A DNA stretch of 64,000 nt from an uncultured Asticcacaulis sp. (GTDB lineage Bacteria; Pseudomonadota; Alphaproteobacteria; Caulobacterales; Caulobacteraceae). Positions 3,304 through 57,135 of the stretch are shown here, in pieces. The notes beneath the pieces are model-generated. The model saw only the letters and a list, made by a program, of their open reading frames with translations. It was not told the DNA's origin and did no database searches. Each line of letters starts with the position of its first letter. Positions within the stretch are counted from its first letter, which is position 1. The translations under genes were made by a program, and so were the position numbers. The stretch is from NCBI GenBank assembly GCA_936940865.1, contig CAKZJB010000006.1, positions 1-64,000 of the forward strand, written 5' to 3'.

Positions 3304-3372
3304 GGGGTATTGCAGATCGTGTCCCTCTCCCTCGGACAGGACTATTGAATTCACAGGTCGCGCCAGTGGCCT

Positions 3373-3576
3373 TGAGAAACCCCATCACCACTTCGCTTCG
3401 CTGGCGGTTCCCCTCCCCATTTTTCTGCGAAAAACGGGGAGGTGCAAAGGATCGATCCGGTTTGCACCTCCCTGTCGCCCGCAGCGCCAGCGCAGGGCGA
3501 TGGGGAGGGGGACCGCACGAGCGAGATTGGCGTAAGCCAACGAGCGAGATGTGGGGGTGGGGTTTCTTGCTTTCCA
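3373..3576. repeat. Intergenic palindromic repeat, locus B (double copy)
   Basis: The 373-base gap between rluC and the HAD gene is almost filled by this element. Two head-to-head half elements are visible: GAAACCCCATCACCAC with CCCTCCCC on the left, and GGGGAGGGGGACCGC with GGTGGGGTTTCTTGC on the right. Between them is an extra CGGGGAGGTGCAAAGG/CCGGTTTGCACCTCCC inverted repeat. The right half also carries a TTGGCgtaaGCCAA hairpin within direct GAGCGAGA repeats. Confidence 0.82.
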
Positions 3577-18653: not shown

Positions 18654-19559
18654 CTATTGCGCTTTGCGCATCCGGCTCCATTCCGCCAGCACAATGCCGG
18701 CGCAGACGAGGCTCAGGGCCACGACGTGGAAGCCGTGGAGCGGGGCGCGCAGCAGGACGACCGACAGCACGACCCCGAAGATGGGCAAGAGGTTGATGAA
18801 CAGCCCGGCACGGTTGGCGCCGATCAGCTCGATGCCGGCGACATAGGTGGCCGACGCCACCAGGGCGACCAGCAGCGCCGCATAGAGCGTCACGCCCCAG
18901 CCAATGGCGTCGGGAGGGCCGAAGGGATGGATCGCGTATTTCCACGCCAGGAACGGCAGGCAGGTCAGGGCTGCCGCCACGCACGGCACGGCCAGCAGGC
19001 TTTGCCAGTGGAGCGGCGGCTTCCATTTCAGCCCGACCGTGTAGCCGGCGTAGACGATGACGGCCAGAAGCATCAGGGCGTCGCCCAGATTGAGCTGAAG
19101 CTTCAGGAGTTGGCCGATGTCGCCGTGGGCGGCGGTGACCAGCACACCGGCGAAGGTCAGGGCGAAGCCAGCCAGTTGCGCGGTGGTGGCGCGCGTGCGG
19201 AACAGCAGGTAGTTGCCGATGAAGATGGCGAACGGAATGCCGGCCTGTTCGATCATGACATTGACGACGCCGGTCTCGGTCAAGGCCGTATAGAGGAGCA
19301 TGTTGAAGACGGCGAAGCCCGATGCGCCGTAGGCCAGCAGGACCGGCCAATGCCTGCGGATGACGGGCCAGTCGGCGCGCAGGCGTTTCCTCGACAGGGC
19401 CACGATGACGACGGCGGCGATGCCCCAGCGCAACGTGGTCAGCAGCACCGGATCGACATGGCCCGCGCCGATCTTGCCGGCGACGCTGTTGCCGGCCCAC
19501 AAAAGCGTCGTGAGGATCAGCAGGGCGTAGGCGCGGACGGTGTCGGAGCGGGACGGCAT
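18654..19559 (-). CDS. EamA/DMT superfamily transporter
   Basis: A 301-residue inner-membrane protein with ten predicted helices in two EamA halves, the first beginning LLILTTLLWAGNSVAGK and the second near LMLLAVIVYAGYTVGLKW. This is the drug/metabolite transporter family, whose members mostly export amino acids or small metabolites. The substrate is unknown. It is upstream of rnr on the same strand and could share a transcript. The DUF1003 gene starts divergently 140 bases away. Confidence 0.9.
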   Translation of the reverse strand: MPSRSDTVRAYALLILTTLLWAGNSVAGKIGAGHVDPVLLTTLRWGIAAVVIVALSRKRLRADWPVIRRHWPVLLAYGASGFAVFNMLLYTALTETGVVNVMIEQAGIPFAIFIGNYLLFRTRATTAQLAGFALTFAGVLVTAAHGDIGQLLKLQLNLGDALMLLAVIVYAGYTVGLKWKPPLHWQSLLAVPCVAAALTCLPFLAWKYAIHPFGPPDAIGWGVTLYAALLVALVASATYVAGIELIGANRAGLFINLLPIFGVVLSVVLLRAPLHGFHVVALSLVCAGIVLAEWSRMRKAQ

Positions 19560-20596: not shown

Positions 20597-20998
20597 ACGG
20601 CGGGTCGCGTCAAGGCTTGTTGCAAGGCAGCATAGGGCAATTTTTTCTCCGGCCGGGGGTATGCCGGAAAGCCGGCGTGCGCCCGCCTGCAATGGGAGCG
20701 CTAACGGCAACCCATCAGTGTGGCATGCTGTTCAATGGCTTTCATAATATGGGAGCGCCGGTCTTGCCGCGATTTTGTTGATTGATCGTACAATTCGTGG
20801 AAATTTATGGGAATCTTATACTATTGCGCTGCAGCTATCGCGCCGCGAAGACTTCGTTTACCTTGAAGTTTGCTTGACGATCTGAATTTGCCGTGCAACC
20901 TGTGCGGGCCGTCGATTGTAATAGCGTAACAAACGTACCGACGGGTTATCCGAAAAAGGAAGGCAGTTCAGGGACTGCCAAGCACAGTGGAGATACCG
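20597..20998 (+). promoter_or_regulatory. Non-coding region with XylR/LacI-like operator upstream of the xylanase
   Basis: No gene fits in these 402 bases. TGGGAGCGCTAACG at 20693-20706 matches 12 of 14 positions of the TGGTAGCGCTAACA-type operator of xylose-inducible Caulobacter genes, and fits the LacI-family pattern TGNNANCGNTNNCA apart from the last base. A partial second copy, TGGGAGCGCC, starts at 20750. A possible -10 (TATACT) lies near 20818. The xylanase start is about 290 bases beyond the operator. Confidence 0.5.
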
Positions 20999-21691
20999 AT
21001 GAATTTGAAGCGTCTCACAATGGTAGCGGTAACACGATTCGTGCCCGCGGTTCTGGCTCTGACTCTGGCGGGGGCGGCCACGACCCACGCCCAGACGATC
21101 TGCTCGAACCAGACCGGCACCAATAACGGCTTCTATTACCAAATGTATCTGAGTTCGGGCTCGGCCTGCATGACGCTGGGCAGCGCGGGCAACTACAGCA
21201 CCACGTGGAGCCTCGGTTCCAGCGGCAACATGGTCGCCGGCAAGGGCTGGTCGACGGGCTCGACCTCGCGCAAGATCGGCTACAATGCCGGCGTGTTCAA
21301 TGGCGGCTCTAACGGGTACCTGTCGCTCTATGGCTGGTCGACCAATCCGCTGATCGAATATTATGTCGTCGAAGCCCATGGCGGCTTCACGCCTCCGGGC
21401 AGCGGCGCCACCTATATGGGCCAGGTCAGCAGCGACGGCGGCACCTACAACATCTACCGCACGCAGCGCGTCAATGCGCCGTCGATCATCGGCACGGCGA
21501 CCTTCTACCAGTACTGGAGCGTGCGCACGTCGAACAATTCGACCGGCGTGAACCATACGATCACCTTCGCCAACCACGTCAATGCGTGGAAGAGCCATGG
21601 CATGAACCTCGGCACCATGAACTACCAGATCATGGCGACCGAAGGCTACGGCTCGACCGGCAGCTCGAACCTGACGGTGTGGCAGCAGTAA
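20999..21691 (+). CDS. Secreted GH11 endo-1,4-beta-xylanase
   Basis: A 230-residue precursor. The ATG at 20999 has GGAGA upstream. The track's GTG start is four codons earlier. A signal peptide ends near THAQT. The mature domain of about 200 residues is one complete GH11 jelly roll with no carbohydrate-binding module. The nucleophile Glu is in [14 protein letters not shown], the YxPPG-type thumb support follows, and the acid/base Glu is in [15 protein letters not shown]. It hydrolyses internal bonds of xylan outside the cell. Its Ser/Thr/Asn/Tyr-rich composition differs from neighbouring genes, and its flanks are non-coding and repeat DNA, which may reflect acquisition. Confidence 0.93.
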
Positions 21692-21823: not shown

Positions 21824-21904
21824 GACAGACACTTTTCGCTTGGCCTTTGCCTGAAAGTCTTATAGCGACCGGACCCACAAAGATTTCGTACCCCGTGGGG
21901 CCTC

Positions 21905-23584
21905 ATGACTACGCTTGTTCTCAAATTCGGCGGTTCGGTGCTGACCTCGGAAAGCGCCCTGCAGCGCGCCGTGTCGGAAGTCTACCGCCATGTCCGCGAT
22001 GCCCACAAGGTCATCGCCATCGTGTCGGCCTTCAAGGGCCAGACCGACCAGTTGCTGCGCCTGGCGGGGGCGTATACGCAGGCCTCGACCTCGACGGCCA
22101 CGCCGCACCTTTTGGCCACCGGCGAAATGCGCGCCGCGACCCTGTTCGCCATGGCATGCGAGCGTTCCGGCATCGTGACCCAGTTCCGTTCGGCCGGTGA
22201 AATCGGCCTGGTCGCCGAAGGCGAGCACCTGAACGCCAATCCCTTGTCGATGAAGCCCGACGTGCTGACGCGCGATCTGGAGCGTGTCGACCTGGTGGTC
22301 GTGCCGGGCTATCTCGCCGAAAATGCCCTGGGCGAACCCGTGTTGCTGGGGCGTGGCGGTTCGGACCTGACCGCCGTCTATATCGCCGACGCGCTGAAGG
22401 TGCCGGTGCGCCTGATCAAGGATGTCGACGCGATCTATGATGCCGACCCCGCGACGGTGGGAGAGTCCGCGAGGCCGTTCGAAGCCCTGTCGTGGCCCGA
22501 GGCGGTCAAGATCGCCTTCCCGGTCGTCCAGTCGAAGGCGATGCGTTATGCTGCCGATCACCGTATGAACGTCCAGGTCGCGGCGCTTGCCAAGGGCTAT
22601 GAAACTGTCTTGGGCGCCGAGACGAAGGTTCGAAAGACCCCGACGCTCAAGCGCCGCATCCGCATCGCCGTCATGGGCGCCGGCGGCGTCGGTTCCAAAT
22701 TTCTGGAAAGGTGCATGGAGTGGTCCGATCTCATCGAGGTCGACCGCATCCTGGTGCGCGACGCGTCCAAGCGCCGCGACCATCCGTTGTCCGCCCTGTT
22801 CACCTCGGACGCCCGCACCTTCGTGCGTCCCGACGTCGATGTCTTCGTCGATATCGGCACGGGCGTGTCGCCGTCGCTGGAGCTTCTGGAAGGATTCCTC
22901 AAGGCCGGCGTCAGCGTCACCTCGGCCAACAAGCAAGCCGTGGCGGCGGCCGGCGAGCGCCTGCGCGAAGCGGCGAAATCGTCGGGCGCCATGCTGACCT
23001 ATTCGGCCTCCGTCGGCGGCGGCGCGCCGATCATAGAGGCGTTGAAGCGCGCGGTCAAATACAACAGGATCAAAGGATTCTGCGGCGTGCTCAACGGCAC
23101 GTCCAACTTCGTCATCGACCAGGTGGAGTCGGGCAAGACATTCGACGCCGCCATGGACGAGGCGCGCCGCCTTGGCTTCGCCGAACCCGACTCGACCGCC
23201 GATCTCGACGGCACCGACGTCGGCGCCAAGCTGAAACTGCTGCGCGACATCGCCTTCCCCGGCGAGACGCCGAAGCATATCGAAGTCGGCCAGATCACCG
23301 AAGAGTCGCTGGTCATCCCAGAGGGCAAGGGCCTGCGCTATGTGGCGCGCTGCTACCGCACCGACAATGGTCTTGAAGCTTCCATGAAACTGGAAGTCTT
23401 GGATGCCGATCACTATCTGGTCGGGGCGCGCGGCGAGCAGAACCGCGCCATCATCGAGCTCGAAAACGGCGAGACCTGGTACGTCACGGGCAAGGGCGCG
23501 GGCGCGTGGCCGACCTCGGAAGCCCTGTTGGCCGACGTGCTGCAGATTGCGCGTGAGCACAAGCTGAAGCCCGACCTGGCCTGA
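21905..23584 (+). CDS. Compact aspartate kinase-homoserine dehydrogenase fusion lacking ACT domains
   Basis: A 559-residue protein. Residues 1-235 are an amino-acid-kinase domain: KFGGS at the start, IVSAFKGQTDQLL, LLATGEMRAA, the GRGGSDLTAVYIADAL loop and DVDAIYDADP. Residues about 245-555 are homoserine dehydrogenase: Rossmann GAGGVGSKFLE, SANKQAVA, the conserved YSASVGGGAPII, GVLNGTSNFV and AEPDSTADLDGTDVGAKLK. Known ThrA/MetL fusions are about 810-820 residues with regulatory ACT domains between the two enzymes. Here the halves join through about ten residues. The fusion would catalyse the first and third steps from aspartate to homoserine, apparently without feedback control. Whether the kinase half is active is not proven. 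Confidence 0.88.
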   Translation: MTTLVLKFGGSVLTSESALQRAVSEVYRHVRDAHKVIAIVSAFKGQTDQLLRLAGAYTQASTSTATPHLLATGEMRAATLFAMACERSGIVTQFRSAGEIGLVAEGEHLNANPLSMKPDVLTRDLERVDLVVVPGYLAENALGEPVLLGRGGSDLTAVYIADALKVPVRLIKDVDAIYDADPATVGESARPFEALSWPEAVKIAFPVVQSKAMRYAADHRMNVQVAALAKGYETVLGAETKVRKTPTLKRRIRIAVMGAGGVGSKFLERCMEWSDLIEVDRILVRDASKRRDHPLSALFTSDARTFVRPDVDVFVDIGTGVSPSLELLEGFLKAGVSVTSANKQAVAAAGERLREAAKSSGAMLTYSASVGGGAPIIEALKRAVKYNRIKGFCGVLNGTSNFVIDQVESGKTFDAAMDEARRLGFAEPDSTADLDGTDVGAKLKLLRDIAFPGETPKHIEVGQITEESLVIPEGKGLRYVARCYRTDNGLEASMKLEVLDADHYLVGARGEQNRAIIELENGETWYVTGKGAGAWPTSEALLADVLQIAREHKLKPDLA

Positions 23585-23586
23585 CG

Positions 23587-23949
23587 ATGGATACGGACCG
23601 CTTCAACGCCTTCTGCGAGTCGCTGCCCGCCAGCACCCATGTGGTGCAATGGGGCGCCCACGACGTGTGGAAGGTGGGAGGCAAGGTCTATGTTATCGCG
23701 GGCACCCAGGAAAACGGCCATTTCGCCGCCAGCTTCAAGGTCTCCGACATGGGCTGGGAAGTGCTGCGCGATCATCCCGACTGCCGGCCCGCGCCATATC
23801 TGGCCTCGCGCGGGTTGAAGTGGATCCAGTACTATCGCGGCGACGCTATGGGCGACGACGAACTGCTGGACCTGATCCGCGATGCCCACCGCATCGTCGC
23901 GTCGGGCCTGTCGAAAAAGAAGCAGAGAGAACTGGGGCTTTTGCCGTGA
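23587..23949 (+). CDS. MmcQ/YjbR family protein
   Basis: A 120-residue protein with the YjbR pattern: WGAHDVWKVGGKVYVIAG, ASFKVSD, CRPAPYLASRGLKWIQ and an Asp/Glu-led C-terminal helix pair. The fold is a small double-wing type considered DNA-binding in family annotation, with no proven function. It starts 2 bases after the AK-HSD stop and its own stop overlaps the GTG start of rlmJ, so all three may be co-transcribed. Confidence 0.88.
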   Translation: MDTDRFNAFCESLPASTHVVQWGAHDVWKVGGKVYVIAGTQENGHFAASFKVSDMGWEVLRDHPDCRPAPYLASRGLKWIQYYRGDAMGDDELLDLIRDAHRIVASGLSKKKQRELGLLP

Positions 23950-24782
23950 ACTATCGCCACGGCTTTCATGCTGGAAACTTCGCCGACCTGGCCAAGCACG
24001 CCGCCCTGCTGGTGCTGCTGCGGAGCCTGCGCGACGGGCACAAGCCACTGCGCGTGGTCGACACCCACGCCGGCGCCGGGGCCTACGACCTGTCCGATGC
24101 CGATTTCGCCCGCTCGAAGGAGGCCGAGGCCGGCATCAAGCATCTGCTCAGCCACAACGTCCCGGACAGCCTCAAGCCCCTGGCCGACTATGTTCGCGCG
24201 AAGAATGCCTCGGCGGGGTTTCACAACCGCGTCGGCCTCTATCCCGGCTCGCCCGTCCTGACGCTCGACCATTTGCGCGCCGGGGACGATTATATCGGCT
24301 GCGAACTGCGCAACGACGACTATGCCCTCCTGCGCCGCCGGATCGAACCGCGCGGCGAGGCGATCCAGGCGGATGGCTATGCCATTGCCGCCCAGGTCGC
24401 CGAAGACAGTGGCGAACACGACCTGCTGTACCTGATCGATCCGCCGTTCGAACTGCCGGGCGATTATGCCGCGATCGTCACGACGCTGACCGATGTCCTC
24501 GACCTGCGGCCCGATGCCAGGGCCTTGGTCTGGCTGCCGGTCAAGGACCTGGAAACGTTCGACTCGTTCCTGCGCCATATGGAGCGCGATCTGCCGGGCG
24601 CCGACATCGTCGCCGCAGAGATTCGCCTGCGGCCGCTGTGGAATCCGATGAAGATGAACGGCTGCGCCCTGGTCGCCGTCAATGGCCCCGACGGCTTTGC
24701 CGCAACGCTGGAAGCCATTGCGCGCGACGTCGTCGCCGTGTTCGGCGAAGCGGGCGGCGAGGGCCGGGTCCGGAGGCTCTAA
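23946..24782 (+). CDS. rlmJ: 23S rRNA (adenine2030-N6)-methyltransferase RlmJ
   Basis: A 278-residue protein starting at a GTG that overlaps the yjbR stop. The track extends it in error. The N terminus NYRHGFHAGNFADLAKH is the family signature, followed by the SAM site VVDTHAGAGAYDL, GCELRNDDY and the catalytic LIDPPFE (a DPPY/F-type N6-adenine methylase motif). The C-terminal MNGCALVAVN is also conserved. RlmJ methylates A2030 in 23S rRNA of E. coli, and the same role is expected here. Confidence 0.94.
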   Translation: MNYRHGFHAGNFADLAKHAALLVLLRSLRDGHKPLRVVDTHAGAGAYDLSDADFARSKEAEAGIKHLLSHNVPDSLKPLADYVRAKNASAGFHNRVGLYPGSPVLTLDHLRAGDDYIGCELRNDDYALLRRRIEPRGEAIQADGYAIAAQVAEDSGEHDLLYLIDPPFELPGDYAAIVTTLTDVLDLRPDARALVWLPVKDLETFDSFLRHMERDLPGADIVAAEIRLRPLWNPMKMNGCALVAVNGPDGFAATLEAIARDVVAVFGEAGGEGRVRRL

Positions 24783-56875: not shown

Positions 56876-56944
56876 TTCATATTTGCCGTGAGCGGGGTGT
56901 CGCGCCTTGACTCTTCCCCGCCCCGCAGGCACAAGGCGATCGTT

Positions 56945-57135
56945 CTTGCGGGAGAGATCGCGACTCAGGTCGCGACGCCGAAGGCGCAACCGCCCCGGAA
57001 ACGCTCAGGCCCACGGACCGCAAGACACGCTAAAACGCTGGAAAGTGATGCCTCGAGCATCCGCCGACGGAGCAAGGACGCTTGATTTCAGCGTCTAAAT
57101 CTCTCAGGCTATCAGGACAGCGGGGGCAGACACGT
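56945..57135 (+). promoter_or_regulatory. Tandem glycine riboswitch of the gcv operon
   Basis: Two consecutive aptamers lie in the 286-base leader of gcvT. Aptamer 1 has GCGGGAGAGATCGCG, CGCCGAAGGCGCAACC, CCGGAAACGCTCAGGC and GGACCG. Aptamer 2 has CCGCCGACGGAGCAAGGA, AAATCTCTCAGGC and AGGACAGCGGGG. These are the conserved GlyRS (gcvT-element) cores. Binding of glycine should switch on the cleavage genes. The expression platform lies between the second aptamer and the gcvT start, about 28 bases. It probably controls translation, since no terminator is seen. Confidence 0.93.

Follow-up and report, generated by a model that had tools for sequence, protein, structure and literature searches.

Architecture of the fusion gene

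The 64,000-nucleotide stretch analyzed here (the window), from an uncultured Asticcacaulis sp., carries a gene that joins the catalytic parts of aspartate kinase (AK) and homoserine dehydrogenase (HSDH) in a single chain, with no ACT domain. The gene and its parts are as follows.

21905 to 23584, forward strand: ACT-less AK-HSDH fusion gene; a single unbroken open reading frame with an ATG start, 559 amino acids
21908 to 22612, forward strand: AK catalytic domain, residues 2 to 236 (PF00696, alignments, structure model, dN/dS)
22613 to 22654, forward strand: interdomain linker of ∼14 residues, 237 to 250 (structure, alignment)
22676 to 23002, forward strand: HSDH nucleotide-binding domain, residues 258 to 366 (PF03447)
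23027 to 23542, forward strand: HSDH catalytic/dimerization domain, residues 375 to 546 (PF00742)

Pfam places the AK catalytic domain first and a two-domain HSDH after it, with matches to AA_kinase at residues 3 to 203 (E = 2.6e-28), NAD_binding_3 at residues 258 to 366 (E = 7.7e-13), and Homoserine_dh at residues 375 to 546 (E = 3.1e-34), all three well above their gathering scores. The open reading frame and these domains bear out the first-pass annotation, which had placed both catalytic cores within 559 residues. No ACT family was found in the fusion protein at an E value of ≤1, while the positive control, the genome's own stand-alone LysC, gave ACT_9, ACT_7, and ACT with the same Pfam library. 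The best kinase matches are aspartokinase models. The aspartokinase model TIGR00657 scores 123.9 bits (cutoff, 208.7) and its alignment to the fusion stops at model position 273 of 442, whereas LysC is matched throughout; scores for the ThrA-type model NF006959 (164.5 bits) and the MetL-type model NF007003 (134.4 bits) are also under their curated cutoffs of 726 and 582, respectively.

The AlphaFold model of the fusion, built on an alignment of 55 related fusions, has a pLDDT of 94.2 and a pTM of 0.92. In this model, the final kinase strand (residues 233 to 236) is followed by the initial strand of the HSDH Rossmann fold (residues 252 to 257), and the C-terminal end is an HSDH helix (residues 534 to 551) with no further domain behind it. 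The join is therefore short, as had been annotated, but is closer to 14 residues than to the “about ten” first given, and it lies at the site where ThrA and MetL carry ACT repeats. In a fold search with the model, the PDB matches listed were only HSDHs and aspartokinases, with the best coverage from two-domain ACT-less HSDHs.

A cryptic ACT domain is ruled out by Pfam at an E value of ≤1, by the predicted structure, and by the fold search. The original description of an AK-HSDH fusion without ACT, either between its halves or at its C terminus, thus holds in Pfam (with the LysC control) and in the structure model, and because both ACT positions are empty, ACT-mediated allostery, whose loss had been predicted, is very unlikely to be present. 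An artifact of gene modeling or assembly, joining two genes or losing ACT through a local error, is also ruled out and has a negligible probability: the same uninterrupted frame recurs in all 25 independent assemblies of the genus, at a length of 557 to 600 amino acids, and in dozens of genomes from other phyla.

Catalytic residues and selection

The AK half retains its motif residues (K7, S41, T47, E74, R150-GGSD154, and K172-D173), and the HSDH half retains K343, E427, D438, and K442, of which K343 lies in the nucleotide-binding part, before PF00742. The HSDH motifs ANK and G-x-D...K are conserved. Across the 55 fusions, which represent many phyla, nearly all of the AK and HSDH motif residues show either no variation or at least 90% conservation, and most of them align with residues of ThrA, MetL, and LysC. 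At the position of TDVD in LysC, the AK half has KDVD.

Within the genus, the AK half has a median dN/dS of 0.16 and the HSDH half one of 0.11, compared with 0.42 for the linker. Both halves are under purifying selection and the linker is relaxed, with the AK half evolving somewhat faster than the HSDH half.

Role in the genome and neighborhood in Asticcacaulis

The named loci nearest to the window protein belong to Asticcacaulis. In a search of 41 genomes, exactly one Homoserine_dh (PF00742) gene per genome was found in each of the 25 genus members. Since the fusion is the sole HSDH throughout the genus, it is expected to be the housekeeping homoserine dehydrogenase, and this status supports a predicted homoserine-forming role. 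Its conservation across the genus rules out an orphan gene or a recent acquisition. The window genome separately encodes a canonical ACT-bearing LysC and contains no Homoserine_dh match other than the fusion, which answers the question, raised at the outset, of whether separate lysC and hom genes exist. It also encodes thrB and thrC and, on another contig, metX-metB behind a SAM-I riboswitch. Four genomes listed as 99 to 100% complete (G042, G051, G095, and G135; genus g11, probably Brevundimonas) had zero Homoserine_dh matches, which suggests either homoserine auxotrophy or an HSDH that escaped detection.

The following features surround the fusion or bear on its regulation.

18654 to 19559, reverse strand: EamA-type permease gene (PF00892, synteny)
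21839 to 21865, forward strand: promoter-like element, CTTGGC ... TTATAG (conserved in the genus; upstream alignment of 13 loci)
23587 to 23949, forward strand: yjbR, the next gene downstream of the fusion (PF04237; neighbor kept in the genus)
23946 to 24782, forward strand: rlmJ, the second gene downstream of the fusion (PF04378; neighbor kept in the genus)
3353 to 3458 of locus L188, contig C127 of the window genome: SAM-I (S-box) riboswitch before metX-metB

Both yjbR and rlmJ lie downstream on the same strand, as first noted, and they keep this place 3′ of the fusion almost throughout the genus. On the other side, the gene adjoining the fusion in most genus members is the EamA permease gene, which is oriented divergently from it. 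Ten of the 17 genus loci have metX 1.3 to 6 kb upstream on the opposite strand, accompanied by metB where the locus is long enough, and the permease gene then sits between metX-metB and the fusion. Of 10 Asticcacaulis loci scanned, 7 have a SAM-I riboswitch at this divergent metX-metB. The upstream space in the window holds genes for DUF1003, GH11 xylanase, EamA, and RNase R, with no metX-metB. The xylanase gene (positions 20987 to 21691, forward strand) is the one immediately 5′ of the fusion; comparison with other loci of the genus yielded no GH11 match there.

The ancestral neighbors of the fusion appear to have been methionine genes, which in the window genome are now elsewhere, and this would explain the missing threonine genes. 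The first reading was correct that threonine genes are absent nearby, but that absence is not the oddity it was taken for, as methionine genes lie divergently upstream in several Asticcacaulis genomes.

The conserved CTTGGC ... TTATAG element is the putative promoter of the fusion. Its position implies a 5′ leader of ∼40 nucleotides, too short to accommodate a riboswitch, and no Rfam match was found upstream of the fusion in the window; a riboswitch, a T-box, and an attenuator 5′ of the gene were rejected on these grounds. Elsewhere in the window, positions 56939 to 57030 (forward strand) hold an ordinary glycine riboswitch aptamer (RF00504).

Distribution and gene context outside the genus

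The ACT-less AK-HSDH fusion family is widespread. When GTDB genomes were scanned using the fusion alignment, 80 loci were recovered; all have the ACT-less layout, and their open frames are mostly 550 to 700 amino acids long. They occur in Brevundimonas, Caulobacter, Maricaulis, Parvularculaceae, and Hellea/Litorimonas and, further afield, in Planctomycetota, Acidobacteriota, Gemmatimonadetes, Rhodothermota, Armatimonadota, Krumholzibacteriota, and a few gammaproteobacteria. Of 150 genomes sampled from the order, 32 have a full-length fusion, and the rest mostly encode a classic HSDH of ∼430 amino acids. Among 150 genomes sampled from the phylum, the HSDHs listed are mostly ∼430 to 480 amino acids long, with ThrA and MetL types of at least 800 and some proteins of ∼350 amino acids. 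One genome (G040) has two relevant loci: an AK-less HSDH in a SAM-I-metX-metB-proBA locus (L046, 5908 to 6906, forward strand) and a second, strongly diverged ACT-less fusion away from met and thr genes (L038, 5552 to 7273, reverse strand).

Outside Asticcacaulis, metX, metB, thrB, thrC, or asd lies within 4 kb of the fusion in 73 of 81 loci, and metB alone does so in 60. On representative loci, Pfam and NCBIfam identify the neighbors as homoserine O-succinyltransferase (MetX), cystathionine gamma-synthase (MetB), threonine synthase, and aspartate-semialdehyde dehydrogenase, and the place of homoserine kinase is occupied by an APH-type or GHMP-type kinase. The layouts differ among lineages: fusion-thrB divergent from metB-metX in Brevundimonas, metX-metB-fusion-proB-proA in Parvularculaceae, and metB-fusion-metB/C-asd in several Planctomycetota. 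The asd gene is near the fusion at 10 loci, mostly in Planctomycetota where checked, which is the context expected for a true aspartate kinase. A SAM-I riboswitch lies 5′ of metX at many fusion loci outside the genus (SAM-alpha at two), and one precedes metX-metB in Asticcacaulis and many other Caulobacterales.

Evolution and loss of the kinase half

The fusions group together in the HSDH tree as a single clade (SH-aLRT, 96), within which a few AK-less HSDHs fall. In the AK tree, the fusion AK clade is apart from LysC, ThrA, and MetL (SH-aLRT, 100). In AU tests, holding the AK-less HSDHs outside the fusions gave a p-AU of 1.5e-58, and holding them as one group gave a P value of 5e-4, so that both arrangements are rejected. 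Placing the fusions and ThrA/MetL in a common clade gave P values of 0.65 (HSDH, where the clade took in the AK-less HSDHs nested among the fusions) and 0.63 (AK), values that neither reject nor establish a shared origin.

The separateness of the AK clade raises an alternative, namely, that the AK half phosphorylates something other than aspartate or serves as a metabolite sensor that controls HSDH in place of ACT. The substitution of KDVD for TDVD and the space that a missing ACT domain leaves for a new regulatory mode are in keeping with this, but the best kinase matches are nevertheless to aspartokinases, asd adjoins the fusion at the loci noted above, and we regard the alternative as very improbable. 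The suggestion in the first-pass annotation of a possible other role for the kinase half likewise finds no favor in the intact motif residues, the dN/dS of 0.16, or the metX, metB, thrB, thrC, and asd neighbors in relatives.

The AK half is cut to an N-terminal remnant of ∼100 residues in three loci (L166, 4825 to 6039; L168, 4805 to 6010; and L174, 4691 to 6010; all forward strand) and is absent in four (L046, L047, L167, and L175). These loci are from Brevundimonas- and Parvularcula-like relatives and lie at the family's metX-metB or proB-proA locus. The three truncated genes look like frozen stages of AK domain loss, and since the AK-less HSDHs fall inside the fusion clade but not as one group, the AK half has been eroded more than once. 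Its truncation or loss in some relatives implies that kinase activity is dispensable where LysC is present. Two further loci carry a free AK half of the fusion subfamily, ∼280 amino acids long and without HSDH, one adjoining an aldehyde dehydrogenase gene (L162, 4204 to 5040, reverse strand) and the other near a group II intron RNA (L163, 5175 to 6023, reverse strand); this suggests that the AK half is able to work alone.

Erosion in relatives raises a second alternative, in which catalysis matters only in the HSDH half, the AK half is structural or vestigial and on its way to being lost, and LysC makes all of the aspartyl-phosphate. The truncated and AK-less genes nested in the fusion clade and the faster evolution of the AK half agree with it. 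However, the fused frame is full length in all 25 Asticcacaulis genomes, AK dN/dS is low and the motif residues are conserved in the genus members aligned, those residues are mostly invariant across phyla, and two genomes keep a free AK half without any HSDH. We therefore consider a vestigial AK half unlikely in Asticcacaulis, if less so than a change of substrate or a sensory function.

Comparison with known enzymes

An HSDH without ACT can still be subject to inhibition of another kind, e.g., the Sulfolobus enzyme is inhibited by cysteine, with which PDB entry 5x9d is consistent, and “unregulated” would be too strong a word for the fusion. Both two-domain ACT-less and three-domain HSDHs have been described (PMC9728202). 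The monofunctional ACT-less HSDHs of Thermus thermophilus (2ejw), Sulfolobus tokodaii (4ydr), and Pyrococcus horikoshii (4xb1) are also two-domain proteins but have no kinase half; in the AlphaFold model, the fusion HSDH half superposes on all three with a TM-score by target of ∼0.8. LysC-type aspartokinases (Corynebacterium glutamicum; Pseudomonas aeruginosa, 5yei) share the kinase fold and motifs with the fusion but have a C-terminal ACT and no HSDH.

Escherichia coli ThrA shares the order of catalytic halves, but it is an 820-amino-acid protein with ACT repeats, threonine feedback (PMC1885841), and a thrL leader peptide, none of which the fusion has. The closer likeness is to E. coli MetL, also a single chain with AK N-terminal and HSDH C-terminal, whose gene adjoins metB, as do many fusion relatives, and which is reported to be free of feedback inhibition and repressed by methionine (PMC1885841). 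MetL nevertheless has 810 amino acids with an ACT-containing segment between the halves, compared to 559 amino acids and a 14-residue linker, and the fusion is in a separate clade from MetL in both trees.

A 2007 survey found AK-HSD fusions restricted to gammaproteobacteria and single monofunctional copies in all alphaproteobacteria examined (PMC1885841). A 2014 study of methionine regulons described hom-metX-metB/metC operons in proteobacteria, some controlled by SAM_alpha in Hyphomonadaceae (PMC4239095), a neighborhood like that of the fusion, riboswitch included; its passages on these loci list “hom” with no mention of a fused ACT-less kinase. The study reports SAM-I to be widespread in Firmicutes, and SAM-I is not among the riboswitches that it traced in Proteobacteria. 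The literature searched held no published description of an ACT-less AK-HSDH fusion, which is weak evidence of novelty because subscription journals are thinly covered; the family is thus widespread, as had been considered possible, but we found no sign that it has already been characterized.

Proposed function and implications

We propose, with a probability of about 0.76, that the fusion is an active bifunctional AK-HSDH and the sole HSDH of the organism, MetL-like and without ACT-based allostery; both activities and the insensitivity to feedback are deduced from sequence and structure prediction. The AK half would convert aspartate to aspartyl-phosphate, Asd would turn this into aspartate semialdehyde, and the HSDH half would form homoserine from the semialdehyde for methionine and threonine/isoleucine. 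With no ACT domain present, neither threonine nor lysine would be expected to inhibit the enzyme by the known allosteric mechanism, and feedback-controlled kinase would be supplied by the separate ACT-bearing LysC. The functional counterpart in E. coli would then be MetL rather than ThrA.

Many relatives in the Caulobacterales appear to exert control through RNA: a SAM-I riboswitch would act on metX-metB and, if the fusion continues the same run of genes, probably on it also. In Asticcacaulis, the fusion would have its own promoter and the riboswitch would control metX-metB only. More tentatively, and with somewhat less than even confidence, we suggest a feedback-insensitive AK-HSDH family spread over several phyla, in some lineages of which homoserine control moved from ACT allostery to a SAM riboswitch over a metX-metB-AK/HSDH unit; some of these lineages may then have dropped the kinase half, and Asticcacaulis would have uncoupled the fusion from the riboswitch.

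AK-HSDH fusions are usually discussed as sharing allosteric control through the ACT segment between their halves. The conserved ACT-less fusion shows that such a fusion can be maintained without that segment. A compact enzyme naturally without feedback domains would be of applied interest in producing threonine and methionine. The family widens the taxonomic range of AK-HSD fusions past the gammaproteobacteria of the 2007 survey (PMC1885841) and provides a natural test of what is gained by fusing two nonconsecutive steps.
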